From Bacteroidota bacterium (GTDB lineage Bacteria; Bacteroidota; Ignavibacteria; Ignavibacteriales; Melioribacteraceae), in assembly GCA_018818165.1 (NCBI GenBank), contig JAHISP010000048.1:1-64000 (forward strand): a DNA stretch of 64,000 bases, read 5' to 3'. The stretch's first letter is position 1. Every line of letters starts with the position of its first letter. A program made the position numbers and the translations under genes. Under the pieces are notes generated by a model. It saw only the letters and a program-made list of their open reading frames with translations. It did not search any database and was not told the DNA's origin. Below are positions 43,394 through 57,702 of the stretch, in pieces.

Positions 43394-43467
43394 GGGCCTA
43401 TAGCTCAGTTGGTTAGAGCATCTGACTCATAATCAGAGGGTCCGGGGTTCGAGTCCCTGTGGGCCCA
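43394..43467 (+). tRNA. tRNA with anticodon CAT (Met or Ile2)
   Basis: Acceptor GGGCCTA/TGGGCCC, D-arm AGCTCAGTTGGTTAGAGC, anticodon loop CTCATAA (CAT), T-loop TTCGAGT; no CCA encoded. CAT with this loop fits elongator Met or lysidine-modified Ile2; I cannot separate them by eye. It is not an initiator, because the anticodon stem lacks the GGG/CCC pairs. It forms the left edge of the accessory region. Confidence 0.93.
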
Positions 43468-43473
43468 CAAAAT

Positions 43474-43508
43474 AAAGCTCGTTTTCTGTCTGAATTCGAG
43501 CTTTTTTA
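43474..43508 (+). terminator. Terminator after the CAT tRNA
   Basis: AAAGCTCG (43474-43481) pairs with CGAGCTTT (43497-43504), followed by a T-run. Confidence 0.8.
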
Positions 43509-43549
43509 TTTTTAAACAGCCTTTACAAACCCGCTGATTATTTAATCTT

Positions 43550-43582
43550 TTTGTATGCACTTTGTATGTAGTTTGTATGCAC
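43550..43582 (+). repeat. Three tandem 11-bp repeats beside the tRNA
   Basis: TTTGTATGCAC, TTTGTATGTAG and TTTGTATGCAC occupy 43550-43560, 43561-43571 and 43572-43582 with exact 11-bp spacing. They lie 83 nt after the tRNA, where integrating elements keep their attachment region. They could be arm-type integrase sites or protein-binding iterons. Confidence 0.7.
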
Positions 43583-43686
43583 TTTTTTCTCTAAAAACAT
43601 TAAAATACATTTGTTAATAAAATAGTGTAATTGCAAATTAGCAATTATTACATATTAGAACAATATGTAAATCATATTACTTTGCC

Positions 43687-43890
43687 TCAATTCTTGGAAT
43701 TAAAATTTTTAATATGCTTTTCAATCTTTTCTTTTCCTTCTTTTACTGCTACATTGTAACATTTCGGACAAGTTATTTTTCCCGTTCCTTCGATCATCGT
43801 CCAGTCTGGTTCTTTTGAAGCTCCGATATAAAAAGAAAATTCTTCTTTTTCTGCTCCGCAATACTCACATTTTAATTTTTCTTGTATCAT
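43687..43890 (-). CDS. Small zinc-ribbon protein, 67 aa
   Basis: Two CxxC pairs (CEYC near residue 9, CPKC near 41) frame a compact beta region, the pattern of a treble-clef or ribbon zinc domain. A Lys/Glu-rich helix closes the protein. ATG at 43890 has GGAG upstream at a somewhat long 11 nt. It is the last gene of the minus-strand accessory set. The function is unknown; such small ribbons are common in phages and plasmids. Confidence 0.65.
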   Translation of the reverse strand: MIQEKLKCEYCGAEKEEFSFYIGASKEPDWTMIEGTGKITCPKCYNVAVKEGKEKIEKHIKNFNSKN

Positions 43891-43953
43891 TGTTTTATAT
43901 CTCCATAGAATAAAAAAAGCGAAGCAATTTTTTTACTTCGTATTATATAAATA

Positions 43954-44343
43954 TTAGTTCGATAATTCTTCCACTTCTTGGTGGATAAGTTCAGTTTGTG
44001 AAATATCGAAAACGGCTTTGAAAAAGAAAAATACTTCATCCGAGTTTTCAGATTCTTGATTTTCTTTCTTTGAAGGAATTGCAATATAAAAACCACTCTC
44101 CCCTTTTTTTACTTTTCTATTATGTTTTTGCCATTGCTGAAAACCACCAACAACAGAAAAAGAAATATTTGGATTATAAATTGCAGCTTGTCTCTCAAGT
44201 AAAATGCAATTTCTGCCTGATAAATAGTGACCTTCTGGATTTTTAATGTTTAATTGCATCATCAGCTGGTCTTTTTGATCTTGTGTTAAATCCTTAACAC
44301 TTTGATAAATTGCTTTAATTTTTTGTTTTTTTGCATTATCCAT
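43954..44343 (-). CDS. ArdC-like N-terminal domain protein (ssDNA-binding antirestriction type)
   Basis: 129 aa. LSGRNCILLERQ, VGGFQQWQKHNRKVKKGESGFYIAIP and VFDISQTE match the order of motifs in the ArdC N-terminal domain (N-x-xLL, FxxW/K, GxxVRKGEKG, VFNxxQT). In ArdC this domain binds single-stranded DNA and is followed by a metalloprotease; here the protease is missing and the protein ends after the domain. GAGG lies 7 nt before the ATG. It may protect incoming element DNA or act in replication. Confidence 0.75.
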   Translation of the reverse strand: MDNAKKQKIKAIYQSVKDLTQDQKDQLMMQLNIKNPEGHYLSGRNCILLERQAAIYNPNISFSVVGGFQQWQKHNRKVKKGESGFYIAIPSKKENQESENSDEVFFFFKAVFDISQTELIHQEVEELSN

Positions 44344-44361
44344 TAGATACCTCGTTTTAAA

Positions 44362-44580
44362 TTAGAAAAGTGAAAGTTGATTTTTAGTTACTTGATTTAT
44401 TTGTTTTTGAGGAACACCAAGAAAATGAGCAAACTTAAGAGCAACTGAGAGAGAAGAAAAAGACCAAGACAAGATTTGACCAGTAGCTAAAGTTTTGTTA
44501 ACCAGATAAGAAACAGAAGAAACCCCAACTTGATGAACACGGATAGAGTGAGCAGAACGAACACAATTTAAGATTACCAT
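44362..44580 (-). CDS. Hypothetical protein, 72 aa
   Basis: No recognised domain. The middle is Ser/Ala/Leu-rich and mildly hydrophobic, the C-terminus polar (VPQKQINQVTKNQLSLF). It lies 18 nt upstream of the ArdC-like gene in the same direction, with AAAGG ahead of the ATG. It is probably a small element gene, but the coding evidence is modest. Confidence 0.4.
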   Translation of the reverse strand: MVILNCVRSAHSIRVHQVGVSSVSYLVNKTLATGQILSWSFSSLSVALKFAHFLGVPQKQINQVTKNQLSLF

Positions 44581-45220
44581 TTTTTAAGCCTTTGTTTTTG
44601 CTTTTGAACTGGCTTTGCCTTGCCAAGCATTAAAAAAAGAAACAAACCGAAAAACCAACGCTGAACTGTTGGCAAAAAGTGAAAAAAAGAACAAAACGCT
44701 GTTAAAAAAAAGGAAGCCGATAAGCAAGGGCGGGAAGCTTTTCACCCGTTTATATACCCTTGATTAGCGGACTCTTTTTTTTAGTTTTGTGGGTTTCTTT
44801 TTTTTGCTTTCGTTTTGCTAACAGAAAGCGTGCTTTGGTTTTTTGCTTGGTTTGTTTATTTTTTTAATATTTGCTTTCCTAGAACGTGCAAATTATTTGC
44901 GTTCCTTGAGCAAATGTTTTGCACACCACTGTGTTTTAATAAAGGATTTATTTGTGAAGTGATGTTTTTTACTGAACAATTAAATTCCGATGGTTACAAA
45001 AATGATTTCTTTTGTAAATAACCGAAAATCCAAATGTTTGTTTCCTCAAAACTTTTGGCTACCATATTGTTTTAAATAAAACAACTTAAAAGACAAGAAT
45101 TAGAGTTTATTTGTGAAGTTTTGGAATGAAACGTGTGAGGACGGAACGCTGTTTGTTCAAGCGAACGCCGAATGAGTGGAAGTGGAGAAACGAACAATTG
45201 AACGGATAGAGAAGAAATAA
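44581..45220. other. 640-bp interval without a supported gene
   Basis: The plus strand here alternates T-rich and A-rich blocks and is richer in G+C words (for example AAGGGCGGGAAGC at 44728 onwards) than its surroundings. A 68-codon frame at 44815-45021 has poor composition and no clear start signal. I see no gene. The interval may contain a promoter or replication region of the element. Confidence 0.5.
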
Positions 45221-45436
45221 TTAATCATGAGGTGTTATATAGCTTCCCAAAATGTGTTTATTATAATATTCTAAAAGTTTATCTCGTTTCTTTTTGCAAT
45301 CAGGACATTGACATGCAAATTTTTTCATACCATCTATTTGAAAAAGCACCTCTGCTTTAACAATAGAATAGTACTCCTTTTCTGAAGAAAGGATTGGTCT
45401 GTCAAATAAATGTGAGTAAAATAATCTTTTAGGCAT
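45221..45436 (-). CDS. Small cysteine-rich hypothetical protein
   Basis: 71 aa from ATG 45436 (MPKRLFYSHLF); a TTG at 45445 is an alternative. CQCPDC near residue 46 could bind metal. Directly at its start lies a perfect palindrome and, further upstream, a four-copy repeat array, so it seems to be the regulated first gene of a short unit. No family recognised. Confidence 0.45.
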   Translation of the reverse strand: MPKRLFYSHLFDRPILSSEKEYYSIVKAEVLFQIDGMKKFACQCPDCKKKRDKLLEYYNKHILGSYITPHD

Positions 45437-45455
45437 AGTGTACAAACGTACACTA
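45436..45455. promoter_or_regulatory. Palindromic operator-like site at a start codon
   Basis: TAGTGTAC and GTACACTA around AAAC form a perfect 8-bp dyad. It touches the ATG at 45436, so a bound repressor would block initiation of the small Cys-rich gene. Confidence 0.5.
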
Positions 45456-45507
45456 ACTTGTAATGATTTTCAAGTGCAAATTATTACATTATATATATTA
45501 TCAGATG

Positions 45508-45570
45508 GACAAAGTTTGGACAAAGTAGGTTATAATTAGGACAAAGTTGATTGATATGTGGACAAAAGTG
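45508..45570 (+). repeat. Iteron-like array of GGACAAAGT
   Basis: Copies start at 45508, 45519, 45540 and 45561 (the last as GGACAAAAGT), giving spacings of 11, 21 and 21 bp, that is 1, 2 and 2 helical turns. An inverted TTTGTCC lies at 45669-45675, and an AT-only run is next to the array at 45490-45500. This layout suits a replication initiator or a multi-site regulator. Confidence 0.65.
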
Positions 45571-45710
45571 ATGATATTTTCATGTTTTTCAGTGATATAT
45601 TTATTAAAAGGTGTGATTATAGGCTATAAAAGCAATTATTAAAATATATGGGTGTAAATAGGTTTTGGTTTGTCCATCCGTCCAAATGAACATAACGCTT
45701 ACAAAATATA

Positions 45711-46190
45711 TTATATAAATAGATAAAATATTATTGATAGAATTAGTGGAATGAATCTTAAAAAAAGAGGTGGAATACCAACATGATTATTAAGCCAAAC
45801 GATGAAGCAATCCCACCAATCCCAAGAGCCTTGGCAAGTTGGAATAGTAAAATTAGAACGTTTCATTCCTAAATCATAAAATAAATCATGTGCAATTATT
45901 CTTATTGAAACAGAAATACAAATTAAACTAAGAGTTAGAAGTACAAAGTGAAAATCAAAAACGAATTGCGCACACGACATTGCGATAGCAAGGAGTGAAG
46001 CAATTACAGTATGTAAAATTGCGAACTGATAAGTATCCCAAGTATGCCATTTGCCTTTATAGAAGTTAGCAAGGGAAGCATTCTTTGCTGATGGATGCTC
46101 ATTAGTTTCTTTTGTTATATAAGCATCGTGAGTTCCTTCTATGTAGTAGATTAACACCCAAAATAATATAAAAACGATTAGGATGGCCAT
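45711..46190 (-). CDS. Small polytopic membrane protein of the phage-like element
   Basis: 159 aa with four hydrophobic segments (about 1-17, 58-78, 80-105, 140-159) and polar loops containing HDAY and a conserved-looking GSWDWWDCF. No recognised family. GAGG lies 10 nt before the ATG. It follows the beta-helix gene in the minus-strand head operon. Holins are usually smaller, so a lysis role is possible but unsupported. Confidence 0.6.
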   Translation of the reverse strand: MAILIVFILFWVLIYYIEGTHDAYITKETNEHPSAKNASLANFYKGKWHTWDTYQFAILHTVIASLLAIAMSCAQFVFDFHFVLLTLSLICISVSIRIIAHDLFYDLGMKRSNFTIPTCQGSWDWWDCFIVWLNNHVGIPPLFLRFIPLILSIIFYLFI

Positions 46191-46335
46191 TTTATTGACC
46201 TCAATATAAATAAGTTATTGTACCAAGCCCAAGTGACAAAGACATTATTATTGTAAGTGCTTTGACGATTTTTAGGATTGTACCATTACAAAAATTTGAT
46301 AAACAAGTTTTCAAAATAGACCTCAAAGAAATAAG

Positions 46336-46353
46336 CGGTGCGATTAAGCACCG
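46336..46353 (-). terminator. Hairpin after the beta-helix gene
   Basis: CGGTGC (46336-46341) pairs with GCACCG (46348-46353), 16 nt after the stop at 46369. The T-run on the minus strand is weak, so read-through into the membrane protein gene is plausible. Confidence 0.45.
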
Positions 46354-46368
46354 TTTTGAATTGTCTTA

Positions 46369-47673
46369 TTAACCAGCTGAAACTTTAACTGTTCCGCTAT
46401 CATTCCATAAAGCACCCGCAATAGTTGGGTCTGCAGAAGGCAAGGTAAAGATTGCGCCGCCTAAATATTTAAAGTTGCCATTATCATCAATTATTTTAGG
46501 ACTTAGATAAATTTTGGAACTTATTAAAGCATTCAAGTCATTATATTCTTTTACAGTATGCTGATTTGTAGCTGTGTCTGTGAAATTAAATATTGAGTTG
46601 TTGTATTCTACTTTTGACCCCGCTATTGTTGAATCGGTTAAGTATAGACCAGGTTTGACATCGCCAATTGCAGAATTATCTACTTGGATTTTGGAAGTAC
46701 TTAAGTGATCCATTATAATCCTACCGCCACCACCACTAGGAAAGACACTCATAAAATTCGATTTGAAATTTGTGAAATTATAGTGTTTGCCATTTTCTGG
46801 TTCATAGCCAGTAGCAAATGCAACGCTTACATTTTTAACATAAAAATCAGAGCCTTCACCTAAATGAATTATACTTCTCCAATAACTTGTGCTTGTTGAA
46901 GCCTCACCACTACCACCAATTACTTTCATATTACAGATGAAACCATTGACACGAGTAAAGACACAAGCAATCCTTGAGTCTCTAAGGTCTAAAGTGATTG
47001 GAGGATCTTGACCCCAACCAACGCCTTCAAAATATAGTAGCGCTGGATATGAAGTTGGAGTTCTACCTTCATATCCTTGAAAAACAAATTTATCCCAATA
47101 GGCAAAACCCACTTGATTAAAAGCGTAATTAAAATCACGTGCTTCAAAAGATATTCCTAAAGATTTAACACTCGTATCAAATGCATTTAGTAAAGACCAT
47201 GTATCAGTAGCATTGTCTGCAAATTTTATTATTACTTGATTATTATTTCTGACTGGATTATCCTTACCATTTCTAACCCAATTGTAATAACCATTTATAT
47301 CAGTTTTGCCTTCAGATTTGTTGATGAAGGTTCCAACCCAAACTAAACGAACAACACCATTTTTATTCTTGATAGTTGGAACTTCATCTTCATTGACTAG
47401 ATGTTCACCAGGATGCAAAAGAATTAAAGCGTGTCTGCCTTTCAAGTCTTCGGGTATTACATTTAGAGCTTTGTATATTGATTTGAATGCAGTATCCCAA
47501 GTTGTTCCATCATTGTTGTCGTTGCCATAAACTGGGTCGACCATTAGACGAACACCTTTAAGAATTGAGTTATCCCATATTATGCAATCACCAGGGAATT
47601 CACCATCAACAATATAATTTTTAGTAGCAATGTCACTACCTAATGATTTTAAGTAACTACGTAGTTTTCTCAT
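46369..47673 (-). CDS. Right-handed beta-helix (tailspike/pectate-lyase-like) phage protein
   Basis: 434 aa without a signal peptide. VDPVYGNDNNDGTTWDTAFKSI is the entry motif of parallel beta-helix proteins found in phage spikes and surface proteins, and many short strand repeats follow. The gene lies directly after the capsid cement gene, with GGAG ahead of its ATG. It is probably a receptor-binding or capsid-surface spike. No tail baseplate genes are nearby, so attachment to the capsid itself is a possibility. Confidence 0.65.
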   Translation of the reverse strand: MRKLRSYLKSLGSDIATKNYIVDGEFPGDCIIWDNSILKGVRLMVDPVYGNDNNDGTTWDTAFKSIYKALNVIPEDLKGRHALILLHPGEHLVNEDEVPTIKNKNGVVRLVWVGTFINKSEGKTDINGYYNWVRNGKDNPVRNNNQVIIKFADNATDTWSLLNAFDTSVKSLGISFEARDFNYAFNQVGFAYWDKFVFQGYEGRTPTSYPALLYFEGVGWGQDPPITLDLRDSRIACVFTRVNGFICNMKVIGGSGEASTSTSYWRSIIHLGEGSDFYVKNVSVAFATGYEPENGKHYNFTNFKSNFMSVFPSGGGGRIIMDHLSTSKIQVDNSAIGDVKPGLYLTDSTIAGSKVEYNNSIFNFTDTATNQHTVKEYNDLNALISSKIYLSPKIIDDNGNFKYLGGAIFTLPSADPTIAGALWNDSGTVKVSAG

Positions 47674-47685
47674 TCTGGTTTCTCC

Positions 47686-48102
47686 TTATTTTATAAGTAC
47701 GCGAATAAGTTCATCAGCCCCAGAAGCTACATCAAGAGCAAAACCATTTATTGCTTGTGGTAAAACAGAACCAGCAATATCCATTTCGGGTTGAGCAGAC
47801 GAAGAAGTTACAGCAGTTCCAGTACTTGGAACGGTTGCAGAAAGAACAGTTGAAGCAACGGCTTTTCCAGCTGAGTCGGATGAAACACTTGTACCAACAG
47901 TAACAGCACCACCAGAATAAACAAGTGCAATACCAGAAACAGAGATTGGCATTTGTTCACCGATTAAAGTGTCAGCATTACAGACACCTAGAGCTTTTGC
48001 ATCGGCTGAACACAAAGCACCATCAAAACCAACGAAAAGGTTTTTGGTTAAAGTTGCAGCTGCAGTGATTGAAGTGATTAAGGTTAATTGTTCAGTTTTC
48101 AT
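47686..48102 (-). CDS. Capsid cement/decoration protein (DUF2190-like)
   Basis: 138 aa, low in charged residues and rich in Ala, Val, Ser and Thr, with repeated GxAV and TVGTSVSSDSAGKAV strands typical of DUF2190 cement proteins that bind the outside of Mu-like and lambdoid capsids. It sits two genes after the capsid protein, in the usual order. AAGGA precedes the ATG. Confidence 0.65.
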   Translation of the reverse strand: MKTEQLTLITSITAAATLTKNLFVGFDGALCSADAKALGVCNADTLIGEQMPISVSGIALVYSGGAVTVGTSVSSDSAGKAVASTVLSATVPSTGTAVTSSSAQPEMDIAGSVLPQAINGFALDVASGADELIRVLIK

Positions 48103-48126
48103 TTTATATAATTCCTTAAATTATTT

Positions 48127-48408
48127 TTATTGTTTTTTACGTGATTTAGATTTAGGATTTTGAGCTTCAATTTTTGGCGTTTCAGTTTCAGAGTTTAATT
48201 CATCAACTTTTGGAGCTTCAAAAGTTTCTGTTTCTTTTGGAGCTTTTTCTTCGCTTCGGCTCCGCTCAGCGACCGTTGTACTATATGGCTCGGTGATCTC
48301 TGTAAGATTCCAAAGTAAATGTTTTTCGCTATCAGAGTAAGGGAACTTGTCCCCTACTTTGTAGAGCTTTTTGTTTGAAAAAATTGAAGTGTCTTTAACT
48401 AAATACAT
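48127..48408 (-). CDS. Small head-region protein with a repeat-derived insert
   Basis: 93 aa. The N-terminal half (YLVKDTSIFSNKKLYKVGDKF) resembles small head-completion or spacer proteins; the C-terminal half is a disordered Glu/Lys/Pro-rich tail. The peptide VAERSRSE in the middle is encoded by an interspersed repeat (48254-48281), so part of this protein arose by repeat insertion without breaking the frame. GAGG lies 6 nt before the ATG. Confidence 0.6.
   Translation of the reverse strand: MYLVKDTSIFSNKKLYKVGDKFPYSDSEKHLLWNLTEITEPYSTTVAERSRSEEKAPKETETFEAPKVDELNSETETPKIEAQNPKSKSRKKQ
48254..48281. repeat. Interspersed repeat R1, copy 1 (intragenic)
   Basis: CTTCGGCTCCGCTCAGCGAC, a member of the CTTCGaCTcCGCTCAG family, in frame within the 93-aa gene; it encodes AERSRSE on the minus strand. 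Confidence 0.75.
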
Positions 48409-48420
48409 ACATTACCTCAT

Positions 48421-49341
48421 TTAAGACAAACAATCGATTATTAAATAACCAGCATCAGCACCAACGATTTTAGGAACGAAAAGGTCTGTGTTTCTTACGA
48501 TTTTAACTTTTCCTTTTTCGTCGTATGTATCAACGATTGGAAAGTTTTTCATTTGCAAAGTGTAACCAAAACTAGGCTCATAAAAAGATCGTGATTGTTT
48601 AGCTTCGGGAACATAAGCAAGAACAACAGAGTCAGTCCAAACATCTTGTAGAACACCGCTTTCATCTTCATAAACAGCAGAAGCGACATAAAGCGCATCA
48701 AATTGCAAAAGTTGTTTTAGTAAATCGGCTGTGATTACTGCGTGTTGAGTATATTTCACTTTATCAGTAATAGCGGCGTGATTTTTAAGAGCAACGAAAA
48801 CAGCGTTAGACATTACAATAACATTCGGATTTTTAGCGATCTGTGAACGGACTGCTGAACGAGCTGTGTCTATTGTTGCAATTGGATCTGATGTTGAAGC
48901 ATTGAATTGATCTGCAGCTGCTAAAGTCACTTTATTGGTTGCTGCAAAAAGCGAAGCGTTTTGAGCCATGTTGGCACAAAGCTTTTCTTTACGTAGTGCG
49001 ATAGCATCGGTAACAACATTTGTTGCGTGCATTTTAAGATTTAGCATATCTTCGTTAATCTCCCGATAATCCATAGGATATTCTAAATCGTGTTCAGTAA
49101 GAACGAAATCGATTGTAGTGTTTACAGTTGGATTAATTCGATTAGAGTCTGCACGAATTGCTCTTTCTGTGTTGTAAATTTTGAAAGCTTCTTTTGTAAA
49201 CTGAGGAATTTTACCTCCCTCCTTATTTACAGAAACTAACGGAAATAAGTAGTTTGCTACTAAACCATTGTTTGAATAAACACGAGCTAACTGTGTTAAA
49301 ACGGGGTCAACTATACGGCGTGCATCTAAAGTACCAGGCAT
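48421..49341 (-). CDS. Phage major capsid protein
   Basis: 306 aa. RRIVDPVLTQLARVYSNNGLVANYLFPLV and FVLTEHDLEYPMDYREIN, followed by a central domain with VIVMSNAVFVALKNH and the C-terminal YGYTLQMKNFPIVDTYDE, are features of HK97-fold capsid proteins of Mu-like phages. It lies 2 nt downstream of the protease/scaffold gene. The size suits a capsid protein that needs no cleavage of a long delta domain. GAGGT precedes the ATG. Confidence 0.82.
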   Translation of the reverse strand: MPGTLDARRIVDPVLTQLARVYSNNGLVANYLFPLVSVNKEGGKIPQFTKEAFKIYNTERAIRADSNRINPTVNTTIDFVLTEHDLEYPMDYREINEDMLNLKMHATNVVTDAIALRKEKLCANMAQNASLFAATNKVTLAAADQFNASTSDPIATIDTARSAVRSQIAKNPNVIVMSNAVFVALKNHAAITDKVKYTQHAVITADLLKQLLQFDALYVASAVYEDESGVLQDVWTDSVVLAYVPEAKQSRSFYEPSFGYTLQMKNFPIVDTYDEKGKVKIVRNTDLFVPKIVGADAGYLIIDCLS

Positions 49342-49343
49342 GA

Positions 49344-50363
49344 TTATACCTCACCTTTTTTATTGATTAAAATATTTAAAGCTTCGTTGAAAGAAATTGC
49401 TTCTTCTTCTGAAAGTTGGGTTGCATCATTAAAAAGCTGTAAGGATTCTTCATCAACATTCATTTGAGAAAACTCATTTGAAGTTTTCTTTTTCTGTGTA
49501 AATTCAACTTTCTTAAGAACTTCATCTGTTTGGAATGGTTGAATTAAATCAGCAAGCTCTTGGAAATCAGAAACGATTTTTGTTTGTTCATCATTTGCAA
49601 AATCTAAAGACTGGAAATGACTAAGCAGAATAAGAAGCTTGTTTTTGATAGCTGGTGTAAGGCTATCGAAGTTTAGTTTATCGATCATATTCTTTTGGAA
49701 ATAAGCTGCATCAATTTTTACATTAAGCTCATTGATTTTAGATTGAAGTTCTGTTTCCAAAGTTGAATTATTTTGATTAGGAAAACTTTCCATAAACTCA
49801 ACAATTTTTGCAACGTCAGATTTTAGAGAATTGAATTGTTCTAATGAAAAAATGTTTGGTTCAGTTTCAGAACCCCCTTCAGTCCCCCTTGAAAATGGGG
49901 ATACCTTGTCTTGCTTTTCTGTTGGAGTTGTTTCTTCTGATTCATCAAGTTCAATTGCAGAAAATTCCATTTCGAAAGATCCAGATTCATCAGCATTAAG
50001 ATTTAATTCTGCTAAGCCTTTAACTGCTGGTAAGACTCCACCAAGAAAACCGACATGATTCAATGAAAGTGTTCCATCCTCATTTTGCGTAAGAGAAACA
50101 GAGCGGTTCTTATAAATCTTTTGCTTTATTAATTCTAAGAATTCTGGAACGAGATCTGAGGCTTCGGCAAAAAGTGATTCGCCTTTGATAAACAAATTTT
50201 TAATCCAACCGAAAGCTGGAGAATTAGTTTTTGGATGCCCTACGACAATTGGAGTTGGCTCTTTGTGATTAAGAATGATTGAGTTTAGGTCGTCTAAGGT
50301 ATAATCCTTAGTAACTCCGCTAGAGGAAGTGTGTTTTCCGACCTTAAAGATTTCGAGTTTCAT
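49344..50363 (-). CDS. Mu I-like phage protease/scaffold protein
   Basis: 339 aa. The N-terminal protease-like part has VTKDYTLDDLNSII, PIVVGHPKTNSPAFGWIKNL and YKNRSVSLT, as in Mu protein I. The long acidic, helical C-terminal region (about 160-339) is the scaffold. At about 155-170 the peptide VSPFSRGTEGG comes from a C-rich interspersed repeat inserted in frame. It is the first gene of the minus-strand head operon, facing terS across the control region. Confidence 0.75.
   Translation of the reverse strand: MKLEIFKVGKHTSSSGVTKDYTLDDLNSIILNHKEPTPIVVGHPKTNSPAFGWIKNLFIKGESLFAEASDLVPEFLELIKQKIYKNRSVSLTQNEDGTLSLNHVGFLGGVLPAVKGLAELNLNADESGSFEMEFSAIELDESEETTPTEKQDKVSPFSRGTEGGSETEPNIFSLEQFNSLKSDVAKIVEFMESFPNQNNSTLETELQSKINELNVKIDAAYFQKNMIDKLNFDSLTPAIKNKLLILLSHFQSLDFANDEQTKIVSDFQELADLIQPFQTDEVLKKVEFTQKKKTSNEFSQMNVDEESLQLFNDATQLSEEEAISFNEALNILINKKGEV
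49873..49905. repeat. Interspersed C-rich palindromic repeat R2, copy 1 (intragenic)
   Basis: CCCCCTT, then TCCCCCTTGAAAATGGGGA, within the protease/scaffold gene. The arms CCCC and GGGG can pair. The same core recurs at 51377-51410 in terL. Confidence 0.75.
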
Positions 50364-50411
50364 ATTAACCTCATTGTTTGTAAAAATATCTTATTAAGAT
50401 TAAATCTAAAT

Positions 50412-50437
50412 AATAGTTGATTTTAAAATAAACTATT
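50412..50437. promoter_or_regulatory. Inverted repeat in the divergent control region
   Basis: AATAGTT (50412-50418) and AACTATT (50431-50437) flank an AT-rich centre in the 130-bp gap between the protease and terminase genes. It could be an operator governing both head transcripts; no other site is evident there. Confidence 0.45.
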
Positions 50438-50493
50438 TGTATTATAATGTCAAGTAAATTATAAACTAATTGCTTTATTATTTGGAGTTAGAA

Positions 50494-50844
50494 ATGGCAA
50501 GACCAAAGAAAGAAATAGATGGTAGTAAAGTGCAGCAATTAGCTGAATACGGACTAAATAATACAGAAATTGCGGAATATTTTAATGTGTCTGAAGGAAC
50601 TATTAGGAATAGTTTTTACGAATTTCTTGCAAAAGGGAGATTAAACGTAAAAACTAAGTTAAGAAGGAAACAAATTCAAGTAGCATTGAAAGGAAATCCA
50701 GCTTTACTAATTTGGTTGGGTAAAATAATGTTAGGGCAAAAAGAAAAGATTGAGACTGAGGGAAAATCTGAATTAACTATTATTAGAAAGATTGTGGAAC
50801 TGGGTGAAAAGAAATTAAAAACTGAGAGCAAGAAAAATGAGTGA
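50494..50844 (+). CDS. Terminase small subunit-like HTH protein
   Basis: 116 aa from ATG 50494 with GGAG 7 nt upstream. QQLAEYGLNNTEIAEYFNVSEGTIRNSFYEF is a helix-turn-helix as in terminase small subunits, and the C-terminal part is helical and basic. It overlaps the terL start by 8 nt. It would recognise packaging DNA and load the large subunit. Confidence 0.75.
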   Translation: MARPKKEIDGSKVQQLAEYGLNNTEIAEYFNVSEGTIRNSFYEFLAKGRLNVKTKLRRKQIQVALKGNPALLIWLGKIMLGQKEKIETEGKSELTIIRKIVELGEKKLKTESKKNE

Positions 50845-52216
50845 TAAATTAGTTGAAATAGAATATCACGAAAAACAAGATGAGATATTCTTTCGTGATG
50901 ATGTTAGGTTCAAAGTTATTGCTAAAGGTCGGCGTTTTGGTTTGACTAAGGGAATGATAAATTATGCTGTTGAGCGTGCATTGAATGGCAAGGGGGAAAA
51001 GATACTTTGGGTTGATACTACTTACCCAAACATTCAAAGATACATTGAGCGTTACGCTATGCCTATTTTAAGGCACTTGCCTAAAGGATATATGGATTGG
51101 AATAAATCCAGAAATGAGATTAAACTGTTTACGGAGAAAGAAGCAATAATAGATTTTCGTTCTTCTGATAGACCAGAAAATATTGAGGGATTTGGATATA
51201 ATTTAATAATAATAAATGAAGCTGGAATAATATTAAAGAATGAAAATTTATGGTTGGAATCTATTCGTCCAATGATGTTGGATTATAAGGCTGATGCTAT
51301 TATTGGGGGAACTCCAAAGGGAAAGAAATATAGAGGGAAAGAGCATTTGTTTTATAAGCTATTTAAGAAAGGAAAACCCCCTCTAAATCTCCCCCTTGAA
51401 AATGGGGAGACTTTTGCGGATATGAAAGAATTGCAGAAAGCAAAGCAAGGTGATTTGTTTCCAGAGGAAGCCGAAAAAGTAAGTAATTGGAAGTCATATA
51501 ATTATTCGAGTTATGATAATCCCATGCTTGATAAAGCTGAGATTGATGAGCTTGCGAGTGAAATATCTCCAGCATTAAGGGACCAAGAGATTTATGGTTT
51601 GTTTGTGGATGCCAATACTGAAAGGATTATTAAACGTGAATGGTTTGGAGTAATAGATAGAATAAACACTGAAGAAAACCGCAAAGCCGGAAAGGCACTA
51701 AGGATTATACAGAGTTGGGATACTGCTTTTAAGAAGAATCAAGAGAATGATTTTTCTGTGTGCACTACTTGGGAGGTTTGGAATAATAGATATACTTTAA
51801 TAGACATTTTTAGAGAGAGGTTGGAGTTTCCAGAGTTAAAGAAAAAGGTAATTGAATTGAATGAATTGTTTAAGCCGAATGAAATAATTATCGAGGACAA
51901 AGCAAGCGGAATTAGTTTAATTCAAGAGTTGCAGAGAGAAACGGTATTACCGATAAAGGCTATAAAAGTTAGCAGCGATAAGATTAGTCGTGTGCATTCC
52001 ATTACACCAATAATCGAAGCTGGGAATGTAACGCTGTATGTATTAAGTGAGCATGTGAATAAGTTTTTAGATGAGTGTGAGGATTTTCCGAATGGGGAGT
52101 TTGATGATATGGTGGATAGTATGAGCCAAGCTCTGGAATATTTGAGGAATAGTGTTGTTAGGGTGGAGATTCCTAGACCGATTAGTAGGAAGTATAGAAG
52201 AAAGAAAATTTACTGA
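50837..52216 (+). CDS. Terminase large subunit
   Basis: 459 aa. The ATPase part has a degenerate Walker A around AKGRRFGLTKGM (29-40), Walker B LIIINEAG, and the coupling motif GGTPKGKKY. The nuclease part has QSWDTAFKK (first Asp), FKPNEIIIEDKASG (second) and EFDDMVDS (third). A Lys/Pro insert KPPLNLPLENGE (about 182-195) derives from interspersed repeat R2. The motor appears intact despite the insert. It is coupled to terS and followed 142 nt later by the portal gene. Confidence 0.88.
   Translation: MSDKLVEIEYHEKQDEIFFRDDVRFKVIAKGRRFGLTKGMINYAVERALNGKGEKILWVDTTYPNIQRYIERYAMPILRHLPKGYMDWNKSRNEIKLFTEKEAIIDFRSSDRPENIEGFGYNLIIINEAGIILKNENLWLESIRPMMLDYKADAIIGGTPKGKKYRGKEHLFYKLFKKGKPPLNLPLENGETFADMKELQKAKQGDLFPEEAEKVSNWKSYNYSSYDNPMLDKAEIDELASEISPALRDQEIYGLFVDANTERIIKREWFGVIDRINTEENRKAGKALRIIQSWDTAFKKNQENDFSVCTTWEVWNNRYTLIDIFRERLEFPELKKKVIELNELFKPNEIIIEDKASGISLIQELQRETVLPIKAIKVSSDKISRVHSITPIIEAGNVTLYVLSEHVNKFLDECEDFPNGEFDDMVDSMSQALEYLRNSVVRVEIPRPISRKYRRKKIY
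51377..51410. repeat. Interspersed C-rich palindromic repeat R2, copy 2 (intragenic)
   Basis: CCCCCTCTAAA, then TCTCCCCCTTGAAAATGGGG and AGA; TCTCCCC pairs with GGGGAGA. It lies in frame inside terL between ATPase and nuclease segments. Confidence 0.75.
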
Positions 52217-52225
52217 CAAGAATAG

Positions 52226-52265
52226 CACGCGGATTGAACGGATTAGACTGATAAGAACGGATAGA
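52226..52265 (+). repeat. Phased ACGGATT-type repeat
   Basis: Four units of about 10 bp (CACGCGGATT, GAACGGATTA, GACTGATAAG, AACGGATAGA) follow terL. Degenerate relatives occur at 45191-45214 and 53591-53631. Confidence 0.55.
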
Positions 52266-52272
52266 GCAGAAA

Positions 52273-52310
52273 CCCCGATGGAATAGGAAAAGAAAGAGCA
52301 TTCCACGGGG
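52273..52310 (+). repeat. Hairpin repeat R3, copy 1 (after terL)
   Basis: CCCCG and TGGAAT pair with ATTCCA and CGGGG around the 15-nt loop AGGAAAAGAAAGAGC. A second copy with compensatory arm changes lies at 53541-53580. Confidence 0.75.
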
Positions 52311-52358
52311 CAAGGATGGATTAAGAGTAAGATTAGGAATTAAGATTAAGAGGTTTTT

Positions 52359-53534
52359 ATGAGCAAGTTATATATGGAGTATTTGAAGAGGGAGAATACT
52401 TTTCTTGGGATGATTGGGAATATTCTTCCAGATCCAGATAAGATTCTTGAACAGAATGGGAATGACCTTTCTATTTATAGGGATTTGCTGATTGACCCTC
52501 ATTTGACTGCAACGATACTTCAAAGGAAAATGCAAGTGTTGCAAATGGGATGGGAAGTTGAGAGTGAAAGCGAGCAACTGCGTAATGAAGGAATTGAGAT
52601 AATGAGAAGATTTCCTATGCAGAATATCATGAGTCAAATGCTAGATTCAATTTTGTATGGGTTTAGTGTTTCTGAAATATTGTGGATGAAAAGTAATGGA
52701 AAAATTGTACCAACTGAAATTATCGCAAAGCCTCAAGAGTGGTTTGCCTTTGATAAAGACAATGAGTTGAAGATTGTTGAAGGGGCTTCGACTCCGCTCA
52801 GCCGCCGTGGATTAAATAAATTGGTGGAAGTGCCTAAGTATAAATTTATTTTGGCAAGGCATCAGCCAACGTTTAGTAATCCATACGGTGAAAAGATATT
52901 GAGTCGCTGTTATTGGCCAGTGAAGTTGAAGCAATCATCAATTGAAAGCTGGGTGCAGTTAATTGAAAAGTTTGGAATCCCATATTTGATTGGGGTTGTT
53001 TCTGATACTGCTACTCCTACAGAAAAAGAAGCTGTTATTGATGACTTATTGGAAATGATTGAAAACAATGTTGCTACTCGTGGAGTGTCGCAACAGATTG
53101 AGATTAAAGAGCAGACAACTTATGATGTTGGTCAAATGTTTGAAAAGATGGTGGAGTTTCAGAATAAGGAAATCTCTAAAGCTGTGTTGTCTGTTACTCT
53201 TACTATTGATGTTGGAAATAGTGGAAGTTACAAGGCTAGTGATGTTCATAGACAAATGCTTGAATATATCGGGATTAGTGATAAGAAGATTATTGAGGGT
53301 GCATTGAATCAGATGTTTGATTATTATACTGAGTTGAATTATGGTACTTCGACTTCGCTCAGTAACCGTGATAAGAAGATTCGTGTGAAGCTGACGAAGA
53401 AAGAGCGGATTACTGAGGAGACTGCTGGTAGAGATAAGATACTTAGTGATATTGGGATTAATTTTAGTAAAGATTACTTCAAGAAAAAATATAATTTAGG
53501 AGACGATGACTTTGAATTAGCCTCTATGAAATAG
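52359..53534 (+). CDS. Phage portal protein, DUF935 (Mu gp29-like)
   Basis: 391 aa. LTATILQRKMQVLQMGWEVE, ILYGFSVSEILW, GEKILSRCYWPVKLKQSSIESWVQLIEKFGIPYLIG and the late DVHRQMLEY match the DUF935 portal family. The dodecamer forms the DNA gate of the head. Two in-frame copies of repeat R1 (residues about 143-151 and 330-337) interrupt it. It is shorter than Mu gp29 (~510 aa), lacking a C-terminal part. No head-morphogenesis (gp30) gene follows. Confidence 0.82.
   Translation: MSKLYMEYLKRENTFLGMIGNILPDPDKILEQNGNDLSIYRDLLIDPHLTATILQRKMQVLQMGWEVESESEQLRNEGIEIMRRFPMQNIMSQMLDSILYGFSVSEILWMKSNGKIVPTEIIAKPQEWFAFDKDNELKIVEGASTPLSRRGLNKLVEVPKYKFILARHQPTFSNPYGEKILSRCYWPVKLKQSSIESWVQLIEKFGIPYLIGVVSDTATPTEKEAVIDDLLEMIENNVATRGVSQQIEIKEQTTYDVGQMFEKMVEFQNKEISKAVLSVTLTIDVGNSGSYKASDVHRQMLEYIGISDKKIIEGALNQMFDYYTELNYGTSTSLSNRDKKIRVKLTKKERITEETAGRDKILSDIGINFSKDYFKKKYNLGDDDFELASMK
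52786..52810. repeat. Interspersed repeat R1, copy 2 (intragenic)
   Basis: CTTCGACTCCGCTCAGCCGC within the portal gene, encoding STPLSRRG. Confidence 0.75.
53347..53370. repeat. Interspersed repeat R1, copy 3 (intragenic)
   Basis: CTTCGACTTCGCTCAGTAAC within the portal gene, encoding STSLSNR. Confidence 0.75.
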
Positions 53535-53540
53535 AAAAGA

Positions 53541-53580
53541 ATCCCAGTGGAATATTAAAAGAAAAAGCATTCCAAGGGAT
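53541..53580 (+). repeat. Hairpin repeat R3, copy 2 (after the portal gene)
   Basis: ATCCC and TGGAAT pair with ATTCCA and GGGAT around ATTAAAAGAAAAAGC, 6 nt after the portal stop. The outer arms differ from copy 1 yet still pair. Confidence 0.75.
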
Positions 53581-53781
53581 AAAGAAAAATAGAACACAGC
53601 TTGAACGAATTTGCACAGATGATAATTAGGATCATTTATTGTCGTTTGTAGTCATTAAAAATGATATAAGGTAATATTAAAATATTGAACAATAATTATT
53701 GCATATCTTGATTTTATAAAACAATTTATTTAAGTTAAAAACTAAGAAAGGCATAGTGTGGATGTTTGTGAGGAAAATGTG

Positions 53782-53875
53782 ATGGGATTTAATATGAGCG
53801 CTGGTTTACTTAAGAAAAAAAATTAGAAAAGCTATTGTTGCTATTAGACGAGTTATGCCGGTTAAAGAAAAATAA
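53782..53875 (+). pseudogene. Possible small frameshifted gene
   Basis: An ATG at 53782 opens MGFNMSAGLLKKK and stops at 53824. Moving one base at the 8-A run continues as IRKAIVAIRRVMPVKEK to a stop at 53873. This may be a decayed small gene or chance. The rest of the 443-bp gap (53535-53977) holds repeat R3 and a degenerate ACGGATT repeat. Confidence 0.25.
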
Positions 53876-53983
53876 GTTGACTATAGAAGTTTTTTGATAC
53901 ATAACGATTAATAAGGCATAATTGTTAGAACAGACAAAGTTAAAAAAGAAATCATATAAAGTAGTTTATAAAAGGGAGTGGTT

Positions 53984-55453
53984 ATGAAATTATTGAAAAG
54001 TATTTTTTTAGTTTTATTTATTTCAAACGCATGTAATGCTCAATGGCAAAAATCTACATTAGATATAGAGCATACATCTGGTGTGATGAATTTTAATGAC
54101 AAAGTAATAGTTGGAACAAGTGGAGATGGGATTTATTATTCTACTACTGATGAAGAAACTTGGGTAAAATATTCAAATGAGTTTGACTCAGTTGGTGATA
54201 AATTCAGTGTTTATAAATTTTATCAATTTGAAGATTTATATGCTTGTACGGATGTGGGATTGTTTAGATTATCTAAGGGTGAGGAAAATTGGGAATACTT
54301 AAACCAAGGAAAATTTAGAGCGTTTTACAAAGGCGATGGTTACTTGCTTTCAGTACCAATTGATGGCGAAAAATTATTACGTTCCACTGATGATGGACAT
54401 ACTTGGGAAGTAATAGATAGTGATTGGACATATGCATTTATGACTATCATTAATTATAAAAATAGTCTACTTGGTGCACATGATAAAGGTTTATACCAAT
54501 CTTTTGATAAAGGTTTGACCTGGATAAAAATAGATGATTACAGCAATACTTTTGAATTGAAAGTCAGTGATAATAAAATTTATAGAGCAACCAATAGCGG
54601 AATTCTTATATCTGAAGGAAACATAGACGAATGGACTAATATTGGTCCAAGTGCACAATTTATAAATGATTTTACAGTATTTGACGACCTACTAATAATT
54701 TCTGGATATAACAATGGATTGGTTTGCAAGAACAAAAATTCGAATGGATGGGTTAGGTCCGATTTAGGCTTAAAAGGAGATGGAGTTTACGAGGTTAAAG
54801 CCACCAATGTAATTGGGGATAAAGTTTTTACAACAAATAATTCTGGATTATGGATACGAGATTTGAACGATTTTTATATTCCTCAACTTGAAGTTACAAA
54901 ATTAGTTGAATTTAATGAAAAACCAGAGGTGGGCGATTCTTCATTTACTCACTTTTCGTTGAGCAACAATGGGTTTGATACATTATTTATAACCGATATT
55001 ATTAGTGACAACCCAAATTTTAGAGTATGGAGTAAAAATTTCGCATTGGCTCCCAATTCGGGATGGTCAAATGTAATTACATATAAACCCACAAATGCTG
55101 GGAAAGAAGATGCTACACTAAAGATTATAGCTAAAAACAATAAATATGGTAATAATAATACAGTTAAGGTCTATGCTGAAGCTTTGCCTACAAAATTTGC
55201 ACTCAATCAAAATTATCCAAATCCATTTAATCCTAGTACAGTGATAAGTTATGATTTACCAAATAATGGATTTGTGGAATTAAAGGTTTATGATATTTTA
55301 GGGAAAGAAGTTGCAAATTTAGTTAATGAAGAGCAACAAAGTGGTAATTACAAAGTAGAGTTTAATGCTTCTTCTTTTTCTAGTGGAATTTATTTTTATA
55401 GAGTTGTAAGTGGAAATAATTCAATGATTAGAAAGATGGTGTTGTTGAGATAG
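53984..55453 (+). CDS. Secreted BNR/Ycf48-like propeller with type IX sorting domain
   Basis: 489 aa from ATG 53984, 6 nt after AAGGGAG; the GTG at 53978 is less likely. Signal peptide MKLLKSIFLVLFISNACNAQ, then propeller repeats of the form STDDGHTWEVI and SFDKGLTWIKI, an Ig-like domain (about 310-405, FSLSNNGFDTLFI) and the NYPNPFNPST sorting domain. It would be exported by the type IX machinery. It separates the phage module from the defence genes and could be host sequence or cargo. Confidence 0.82.
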   Translation: MKLLKSIFLVLFISNACNAQWQKSTLDIEHTSGVMNFNDKVIVGTSGDGIYYSTTDEETWVKYSNEFDSVGDKFSVYKFYQFEDLYACTDVGLFRLSKGEENWEYLNQGKFRAFYKGDGYLLSVPIDGEKLLRSTDDGHTWEVIDSDWTYAFMTIINYKNSLLGAHDKGLYQSFDKGLTWIKIDDYSNTFELKVSDNKIYRATNSGILISEGNIDEWTNIGPSAQFINDFTVFDDLLIISGYNNGLVCKNKNSNGWVRSDLGLKGDGVYEVKATNVIGDKVFTTNNSGLWIRDLNDFYIPQLEVTKLVEFNEKPEVGDSSFTHFSLSNNGFDTLFITDIISDNPNFRVWSKNFALAPNSGWSNVITYKPTNAGKEDATLKIIAKNNKYGNNNTVKVYAEALPTKFALNQNYPNPFNPSTVISYDLPNNGFVELKVYDILGKEVANLVNEEQQSGNYKVEFNASSFSSGIYFYRVVSGNNSMIRKMVLLR

Positions 55454-55917: not shown

Positions 55918-57702
55918 ATGGATAAACTAGAATTAATACCAATTGAAAATTTATTAAAAAAAGAATTTTTCATTCCTGCTTACCAAAGAGGCTATCGGTG
56001 GAACGAAAGACAAGTAATAGATTTATTGGAGGATATTCTTGAATTTCAAGAGAAAGAAGATAAAGAAAAAGGTGAATTTTATTGTCTTCAACCAATAGTC
56101 GTGACTAAAAAGATAAATGATGGATGGGAAGTTATTGATGGACAACAAAGGCTTACTACGCTATTCATTCTTTTATCCTATCTCGAAGAAGCAAGAAAAA
56201 TTATGTTTAACAGAGTTGAGAAATTTGTCATATCTTATGAAACAAGAGAAAAAGAAGATTACAGCAGCAAAGAATTTTTAGAAAAAATATTAGAAACAAA
56301 AGAGGTTAATACTAAAAACATTGACTTTTTTCACATTAGTAAAGCCTATATATCAATAAAAAAATGGTTTGAATACAATAACATTAATAAAGCTGATTAT
56401 TTAAATACTCTACTAAAAGTAGACTACAGAGATGCTAAAGACATTGCCAATAATGTGCGATTTATTTGGTACGAAGTGCAACCGAAAAGTGAGAATTTAT
56501 CAAAGAATATTTTCACAAGAATAAATATGGGCAAAATTTCACTTACAAACGCTGAACTTATTAAAGCTCTATTTTTTATAAATAGTAGCCAAACAGATAA
56601 GGAAAGAGAAAAATACCAACAGAAACTTGCTTACGAATGGGAAAATATAGAAAATACTTTACAAAATAAGAGTTTTTGGTTTTTCTTAAATAAAACTTAC
56701 AACTCAAAGCCTACAAAAATTGCATATATCTTTGATTTAATTGCAAATAAATATCGAAATGAGGTAACAATTAAGATAAACAAATCAATTGACAAGTACT
56801 ATACTTTCTATATATTCAATAACCTAATAAAGAACAACAAAAAAACAAAAAATGAATTATGGGAAGAAATAAAAACATATTTTAGAACTTTTGAAGAATG
56901 GTATAATAACAATGTATATTATCATTTAATTGGTTATTTAATTCATATAGGTGAAGATGTTGAACAAATTAAATTACTTTCTAATAATATCTCAAAATCA
57001 GATTTCAAAAAAGAACTAATTAAATTAATAAGTTTAGATATTAAGAGAAAATTTGAAAAAAAGAGAATTGAATCGATAATTGAATTGTCGTATGAAGAAA
57101 ACAGTGATCTCATTAGGGAAATATTGCTTTTGTTTAATGTTGTTTCAACAATGAATAGTAAATATTCAAAATTCCCTTTTGAAAGATTTATTGAAGAAAA
57201 GTGGAGTTTGGAGCATATTCACGCACAAAATTCAGAAGATTTAAAAACTGACAAACAAAGAAGGCTACTATTAGAAGAACAAAAAATATTTTTCAACAAT
57301 GTAAAAGAGGAAAATATCGAAGAAAAAATAACAAACCTTTTAAAAGTTAGTAATATTGAACTTGATTCATTTGTTAGTTTACAGGAAGAAATATTTCAAA
57401 AATATTCGGAAAATGAAAACGTAAATATACATTCCATTGATAACATGGCTTTACTTTCCACTGAAGATAATTCTGCATTAAACAATAACATTTTTCCGAT
57501 AAAAAGAGATAAGATAATTGAACTAGACGAAAAAGGTTCATTTATACCTATTTGCACAAAAAATGTATTTCTTAAATATTATAGTAAAGACGTTTCTCAA
57601 AATTCAGAGTGGACAAAAAAAGATAAGGAAGCATATCGGAATGAAATTGAAACAAAGTTAAATGAATTCTTACCTAATGAAGAAAAAACTGATGAAGACT
57701 AA
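55918..57702 (+). CDS. DUF262 protein with C-terminal HNH-like (DUF1524) region
   Basis: 594 aa. N-terminal DUF262 (ParB/Srx-like NTPase fold): IPAYQRGYRW (18-27) and DGQQRLTTLF (from D74). C-terminal EHIHAQ (E432-H435) followed by NMALLS and NSALNNNIF, the layout of DUF1524-type HNH nucleases. GmrSD and related type IV restriction and anti-phage enzymes combine these two domains, using nucleotide hydrolysis to gate cleavage of modified DNA. It overlaps the next DUF262 gene by 11 nt. It is probably a defence nuclease; target unknown. Confidence 0.85.
   Translation: MDKLELIPIENLLKKEFFIPAYQRGYRWNERQVIDLLEDILEFQEKEDKEKGEFYCLQPIVVTKKINDGWEVIDGQQRLTTLFILLSYLEEARKIMFNRVEKFVISYETREKEDYSSKEFLEKILETKEVNTKNIDFFHISKAYISIKKWFEYNNINKADYLNTLLKVDYRDAKDIANNVRFIWYEVQPKSENLSKNIFTRINMGKISLTNAELIKALFFINSSQTDKEREKYQQKLAYEWENIENTLQNKSFWFFLNKTYNSKPTKIAYIFDLIANKYRNEVTIKINKSIDKYYTFYIFNNLIKNNKKTKNELWEEIKTYFRTFEEWYNNNVYYHLIGYLIHIGEDVEQIKLLSNNISKSDFKKELIKLISLDIKRKFEKKRIESIIELSYEENSDLIREILLLFNVVSTMNSKYSKFPFERFIEEKWSLEHIHAQNSEDLKTDKQRRLLLEEQKIFFNNVKEENIEEKITNLLKVSNIELDSFVSLQEEIFQKYSENENVNIHSIDNMALLSTEDNSALNNNIFPIKRDKIIELDEKGSFIPICTKNVFLKYYSKDVSQNSEWTKKDKEAYRNEIETKLNEFLPNEEKTDED

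Follow-up and report, generated by a model that had tools for sequence, protein, structure and literature searches.

Capsid-forming phage-inducible chromosomal islands (cfPICIs) are the closest described systems to the locus reported here, and the papers on them describe head-tail connectors and an HNH endonuclease (PMC10690885, PMC11389934, PMC13230959). For the Streptomyces satellites Mulch and Flayer, PMC10690885 presents the MulchRoom tail as thought to come from a helper. We analysed a stretch of 64,000 nucleotides (the window), positions 1 to 64,000 of contig JAHISP010000048.1 (C101) from a genome of the Melioribacteraceae (G000; a second contig of this genome, C7, bears a second head element). 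The window contains a phage head-and-packaging block at 43474-53900, and we judge it probable that this block is the head-and-packaging module of a capsid-forming, tail-stealing integrative satellite. Insertion in a tRNA gene, attachment (att) repeats, empty sites, integrases, a primase, the recurrence of the block with no tail genes recognised and purifying selection on the head genes all support this reading.

The block is built from two divergent operons, with a spike-like gene at the end of the minus-strand one:

46369..47673, minus strand: spike-like protein, 434 aa; start conserved, body variable, recurs in relatives
47686..48102, minus strand: cement/decoration protein (PF09956; phrog_673)
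48127..48408, minus strand: 93-aa open reading frame (ORF) between capsid and cement (families F6/F8)
48421..49341, minus strand: major capsid protein (MCP; phrog_1005, E=6e-100; PF03864)
49344..50363, minus strand: head maturation protease/scaffold (phrog_976, E=1.8e-47)
50364..50493: divergent control region of 130 bp between the two head operons
50494..50844, plus strand: terminase small subunit (TerS; phrog_309, E=4.5e-6)
50837..52216, plus strand: terminase large subunit (TerL; PF17289, PF03237)
52359..53534, plus strand: DUF935 portal (PF06074, E=1.2e-79)

PHROG and Pfam matches confirm the preliminary description of this DNA, which had placed protease/scaffold, capsid and cement genes on the minus strand and TerS, TerL and a DUF935 portal on the plus strand; the PHROG name for the cement family phrog_673 is 'head scaffolding'. 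TerL carries motifs that we take to be the ATPase- and nuclease-like ones. The shared control region of 130 bp also holds if TerS starts at the ATG at 50494, where its homologues begin; the ORF list had used a TTG at 50470, and 50494 is most likely the true start. Sigma-70-like sites are fewer in the region than in shuffled sequence (33 versus a mean of 40.2), so that the control region cannot be dissected by that route. A 16-base repeat (at most one mismatch) is found 23 times across the genome. The genome's two head elements account for 11 of these sites, three on C101 (48254, 52786 and 53347) and eight on C7 (21495-34124); the reading frames of the portal and the 93-aa ORF also contain it.

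What had been described as a compact 10-kb element makes up only the tRNA-proximal end of an island of 39.3 kb inserted in tRNA-Met; the right part of this island lies beyond the window. The features that define it, in contig coordinates, are:

43394..43468, plus strand: tRNA-Met(CAT) (ARAGORN), the integration target and left neighbour of the head block
43423..43514, plus strand: left attachment site (attL), the 3' part of tRNA-Met and its hairpin; 92-bp repeat, 96.7%
68299-69360: second tyrosine recombinase (int68)
69385-71697: primase-polymerase homologue (prim69)
72-81 kb: ABC-transporter-like stretch
81687-82703: end tyrosine recombinase (int81)
82788-82878: second copy of the 92-bp repeat, adjoining the int81 gene

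The tRNA had been noted correctly beside the block. Within 43474-53900 the scanned ORFs gave no match to a tail or integrase family, as first reported; for the element as a whole the claim that it lacks an integrase fails, since att repeat, two tyrosine recombinases and the primase-polymerase homologue (Prim-Pol and PriCT-2 domains are named on its homologue in relative L068) show the island to reach contig position 82878. A second att copy sought within about 4.5 kb around the block gave only repeats of up to 13 bp, the 92-bp copy being 39 kb off. Four congeners allow the site to be compared. About 100 bp after tRNA-Met in G002, 63 bp match the start of a tRNA-Ser, after which the G002 contig diverges and ends; the matching tRNA-Ser in the window's genome sits beyond the second repeat of the island. 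In G001 tRNA-Met is followed by tRNA-Ser-like sequence, partly duplicated. At this tRNA G004 has sequence resembling ardC and orf72 from a related island, and in G003 similarity runs for about 170 bp beyond the repeat and then stops. Two of the four congeners, G002 and G001, therefore do not have the island in this place.

The block recurs in other genomes. A capsid alignment search returned 35 IMG/VR contigs and 21 GTDB contigs, and the window's capsid group holds 11 GTDB loci, eight under Ignavibacteriota names, two from BRH_c32 (G007, of the same family as the window's genome) and one from a Sulfuricurvum bin. The capsid of this last contig (L065) is identical to that of L040, and the contig may be misbinned. 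The capsid clade comprises 34 rows with support of 96/99, in a tree that leaves out L075 (217 aa) and whose bootstrap had not fully settled. Among 146 sampled genomes of the order, 12 contain the capsid profile, with tailed-type loci in G027 and at one of the two loci of G108. Where contigs cover the region, relatives have portal-TerL-TerS opposed to protease-capsid-ORF-cement; the exceptions are L070, without portal and TerL, and G007:C35, with only portal and TerL. Among the G007 loci (L022/L023, L024, L070), one head locus is very compact, with Lin1244-like and DnaA/IstB-like ATPase genes, and partial copies occur elsewhere in that genome.

Three relatives are likewise bounded by tRNA repeats: L068 (tRNA-Thr, exact 48-bp repeat, 22.5 kb), L066 (tRNA-Asp, exact 44-bp repeat, 31.2 kb) and G064 (tRNA-Met, exact 49-bp repeat, 34.3 kb, with an int68-like recombinase at the repeat, in a genome that is one 3.74-Mb contig). 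The bounded islands thus span 22.5 to 39.3 kb, and in C101, L068 and L066 it is the tRNA end that holds the head block. L031 has tRNA-Met about 3 kb, and G114 has tRNA-Asp about 4 kb, from the capsid gene, in both cases on the side where the window has its tRNA; the available sequence showed no second copy. The cleanest case is L068, whose 22 ORFs in 22.5 kb include the head genes, recombinases, a primase, a helicase-like protein, an MmeI-type enzyme and a handful of unknown ORFs. After its cement gene every ORF is 82 aa or shorter, so it lacks the spike. The G064 island has integrase, replication, methyltransferase, ArdC and endolysin genes. Across 15 sequences from the clade's tail-less loci, some of which are near-copies of one another (G042/G048 and C7/L030) and so not independent, int68-like genes occur in nine, prim69-like genes in seven and int81-like genes in five; among those negative for int68, L030 and L032 are contigs below 12 kb, while C7, G007:C19 and L070 are longer yet also without it. 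The second head element of the window's genome (L004; G000:C7:21236-35700) has a GH108 endolysin, a tRNA-like fragment at its end and a possible Sak4-like gene, named by analogy with G064.

Tail genes were sought with 18 tail, neck and late-gene profiles drawn from relatives (E 0.001), applied to 52 sequences from clade-bearing contigs, namely 34 loci and 18 partly overlapping flanking pieces of their contigs. None of the 52 matched, adaptor, gp37 and gpG profiles included; all 11 control loci matched, but these had supplied the profiles and the control is therefore circular. A search for the block in other genomes had been proposed as a check; it recurs there, with no tail genes recognised by these profiles. 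PHROG scans of 40 ORFs from three bounded islands gave nine families, none of them tail or connector, and in a scan of the full 68 ORFs no tail family appeared among the best 25 of 66 families. The 28 ORFs left out of the smaller scan were defence, transporter, primase and several unknown ORFs, and ten of these that were large or unknown (L066, L068 and C101), scanned singly, gave no tail family. For the G064 island, in which 63 ORFs were called and TerL is the sole ORF above 400 aa, 48 were scanned (the others are head genes, the integrase, ORFs that span piece edges and some of the short ORFs), and no tail family appeared among the best 25 of 36 families.

A test of selection on capsid and TerL had been proposed as well. 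Against six close relatives the ratio of non-synonymous to synonymous substitution (dN/dS) in usable rows is 0.07-0.12 for MCP, 0.08-0.13 for the portal and 0.11-0.16 for TerL, values that are rough because dS is near or above 1 and that indicate purifying selection on all three genes. Against the more distant L066 and L068 the values are 0.19-0.20 for MCP and 0.12-0.23 for TerL. The close-relative ranges omit saturated rows, L066, L068, L022, TerL of L004 (internal stop, split gene) and TerS of L021, where the TTG start had been used and the stop precedes the true start.

Divergent strands had been taken as an unusual, head-only mark, and we considered them as a mark of satellites; this was rejected, as relatives with adaptor or tail genes (L045, L049, L058 and L072) are also divergent. 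L072 and L045 combine the same divergent head operons with late genes, their PHROG matches being head-tail adaptor, sheath, tube, tape measure and two hubs in L072 and tape measure in L045. The layout is therefore ancestral. The preliminary description had named relatives with the same block and a tail as the finding that would speak against it; such relatives exist in the distant L045 and L072, and perhaps in L046 and L048, which lie inside the 34-row capsid clade with a different late region. In the one scanned, L046, an endolysin and fibre-like genes accompany a weak match of tape-measure type, and in the G014 prophage a homologue of the 230-aa protein of L046/L048 sits two genes away from a tape-measure gene. 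Loss or exchange of tails may have happened at least twice in the clade.

The spike-like gene stood in part. It recurs in relatives with similar first residues and a varying body, and the call rests on that recurrence and conserved start; its PHROG matches are marginal (E 0.0017 and 0.0046), and a fold prediction from five sequences gave no usable fold (mean pLDDT 33). Over the first 33 codons, G002 (near a contig end) differs from the window by a dS of 0.05, compared with 0.86 for the capsid genes, which suggests recent exchange. The tailed G014 prophage, from the same host family, encodes a distant homologue (29% over 351 aa) not far from a GH108 endolysin that has 54% identity to the one of C7; late genes thus seem to be common to satellites and tailed phages of these hosts. 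In the particle the spike-like protein may be a decoration of the head or of its joint with the tail. In L035-L038, L040 and L065 a pair of ORFs (126 and 445-461 aa) directly follows the cement gene, at the place of the window's spike, with starts that by eye resemble signal peptides.

As a satellite, the island would be induced and excised, probably upon infection by a tailed phage, and replicated by its own primase. It would make its own heads and package its own DNA with its own terminase, and the heads would be joined to helper tails, probably by helper connectors too. An endolysin was not found in the window copy, which would therefore rely on the helper for lysis; C7 and L032 have one. 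Induction, replication, packaging and tail joining are modelled here on cfPICI biology as given in PMC10690885, PMC11389934 and PMC13230959.

Several observations weigh against a satellite. PF00589 has no match on G000:C7, G001:C11 or G002:C165, although these extend at least 20 kb past the portal, nor on the 17.1-kb L040 record, and int68 was not found in G007:C19 or L070; copies with no integrase match may be truncated, use another route or have decayed. TerL of C7 is split into two ORFs, so single copies do decay, and L070 and G007:C35 are partial. No head-tail connector was found, though a diverged one may have been missed, and profile screens detect only relatives of the families used. 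The 9-kb ABC-transporter stretch between the C101 repeats may point to two islands, nested or in tandem, and the G064 island resembles a near-complete temperate phage with lysis and replication genes of its own. L046 and L048 may be tailed, possibly with a non-contractile tail set, and 'tail-less' may thus not be true of every clade member. As for a resident helper, the sheath family PF04984 matched in none of eight genomes (three of 14 control genomes matched), the tape-measure family PF10145 gave one match, under the cut-off, in eight genomes, and the 230-aa late protein of L048 occurs in two of 146 genomes of the order, which makes that candidate helper type rare among those sampled. PMC11389934 reports that the cfPICI EcCIEDL933 is mobilised by non-native phages and by none of 17 prophages of its own strain, so that a missing resident helper is weak evidence against the satellite reading.

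Decay could also be the whole story, the elements being degraded prophages that lost their tails after integration and whose head genes are slowly decaying remnants. The split TerL of C7, the short spike of L021, the N-terminal-only ArdC of the window, the partial loci and the absence of integrase matches on C7, G001:C11 and G002:C165 are what such decay would leave. We nevertheless think it unlikely, because the head genes recur, with tail profiles silent, across 88 to 54% capsid identity and under purifying selection, and because att repeats, empty sites and at least three different tRNA targets speak of mobility. The earlier suggestion of a prophage cut down to its head agrees with the deep history of these elements, not with a recent decay private to this one. 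Purifying selection on head genes would also suit a domesticated head module serving the host in the manner of a gene transfer agent (GTA), which had been proposed as well. GTAs have tails, and none is recognised here; moreover, the patchy distribution (some of the 12 capsid-bearing genomes having tailed loci), the integrases, the att repeats, the several tRNA sites and the variable cargo leave this explanation very improbable.

A further possibility is that these are autonomous tail-less viruses, with a portal-bearing HK97-type capsid and, in some lineages, spikes, that infect alone. No tail family is recognised by homology in the bounded elements, and a spike with a conserved start and variable body is in keeping with this idea. 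G064 would be the prime candidate, having integrase, replication, methyltransferase, ArdC and endolysin genes and no ORF above 400 aa besides TerL. L068 has no spike, however, and the spike homologue of G014 sits near tail genes in a tailed prophage; we know of no precedent for a bacterial HK97-type virus that infects without a tail, and we regard autonomy as distinctly unlikely. The capsid-forming satellite, one of the readings offered at the outset, is the best supported of them.

The remaining genes at the tRNA end and in the cargo of the island are as follows:

43687..43890, minus strand: zinc-ribbon-like small protein, 67 aa (weak PF13717, under cut-off)
43954..44343, minus strand: short form of ArdC (anti-restriction), N-terminal domain only (PF08401 above cut-off, phrog_7245)
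45221..45445, minus strand: 74-aa protein (family F11; in nine loci of the set including the window)
45711..46190, minus strand: 159-aa hydrophobic protein, membrane-like by eye (family F13; six loci including the window)
53978..55453, plus strand: secreted-type protein, island cargo
55918..57702, plus strand: defence-like protein (PADLOC HEC-06/Orf5/SspE)
57662..59887, plus strand: 741-aa protein overlapping the preceding gene
60579..62831, plus strand: type I restriction methyltransferase (PADLOC)
62824-64179: type I specificity subunit, after the methyltransferase (PADLOC)

The 159-aa protein has no Pfam match, and its family adjoins the GH108 endolysin in C7 and L032. The secreted-type protein ends in what we take to be a motif like that of the type IX secretion system (T9SS), and the defence-like protein is presumably of the DUF262 type; the 741-aa protein has neither a PADLOC nor a PHROG match. 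Septu PtuA/PtuB genes lie directly behind the type I M and S genes, outside the window, and PADLOC identified no type I R gene in this stretch (C101:60579-66187). The defence cargo of these islands comprises DUF262-type, type I M and S, Septu and MmeI genes.

If the satellite reading is right, tail-stealing by capsid-forming satellites also arose from a Mu-like head, and in a phylum for which our literature searches showed no satellite paper among the matches listed. Searches on Ignavibacteria and Melioribacter phages, prophages and satellite capsids had no such elements among the matches listed, as judged by title and start of abstract, a result limited by subscription papers and no proof of absence. 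A head of seven genes in which no connector can be recognised would be unusually stripped, and it raises the question of how a portal engages a tail from another phage. Restriction and Septu-type defence genes travel with the islands as well.

Mu-like/RcapMu-type phages, which are tailed, share the PHROG 1005 capsid and DUF935 portal (capsid identity 33.0% to RR1-B, 35.4% to phiSHP3 and 43.5% to AFS-2018a), whereas their tail, adaptor and neck genes were not found here. GTAs would have tail genes in the cluster and neither integrase nor att sites, and would package random host DNA, and a tailed prophage would have a tail module; we found integrases and att repeats, and no tail module. Phage satellites in general are mobile elements that lack genes for their own particle and obtain them from a helper; the island here is present in the window's genome and absent from its site in two congeners, and no tail was recognised in it. 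The Vibrio TG93 PISP resembles our islands in its PF03864 capsid, head protease, small terminase and lack of tail genes; according to PMC13230959 it is an 11.1-kb plasmid without an integrase, proposed to remodel helper heads, whereas the islands here are chromosomal and have a portal and TerL. Mulch and Flayer likewise have their own terminases, portal and capsid; PMC10690885 describes them with a head-to-tail adapter and terminal repeats and without key replication genes, whereas our islands have a primase-polymerase homologue and no adapter was found. The likeness to cfPICIs extends to an integrated satellite with its own capsid, protease, portal, TerS and TerL, an integrase and att sites, and no tail genes recognised by homology; cfPICIs rely on a helper for tails, and these islands probably do as well. 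The published capsids compared in PMC13230959 are PF05065, whereas here only PF03864 occurs; connectors are encoded there and none was found here. The bounded islands here measure 22-39 kb. As to the HNH endonuclease of cfPICIs, the related observations are Septu PtuB among the defence genes of C101 and, in G064, a match to a PHROG family named 'endonuclease'. Our best reading is that these islands work like cfPICIs but with no connector found, with a PF03864 Mu-like head and with defence genes as cargo.

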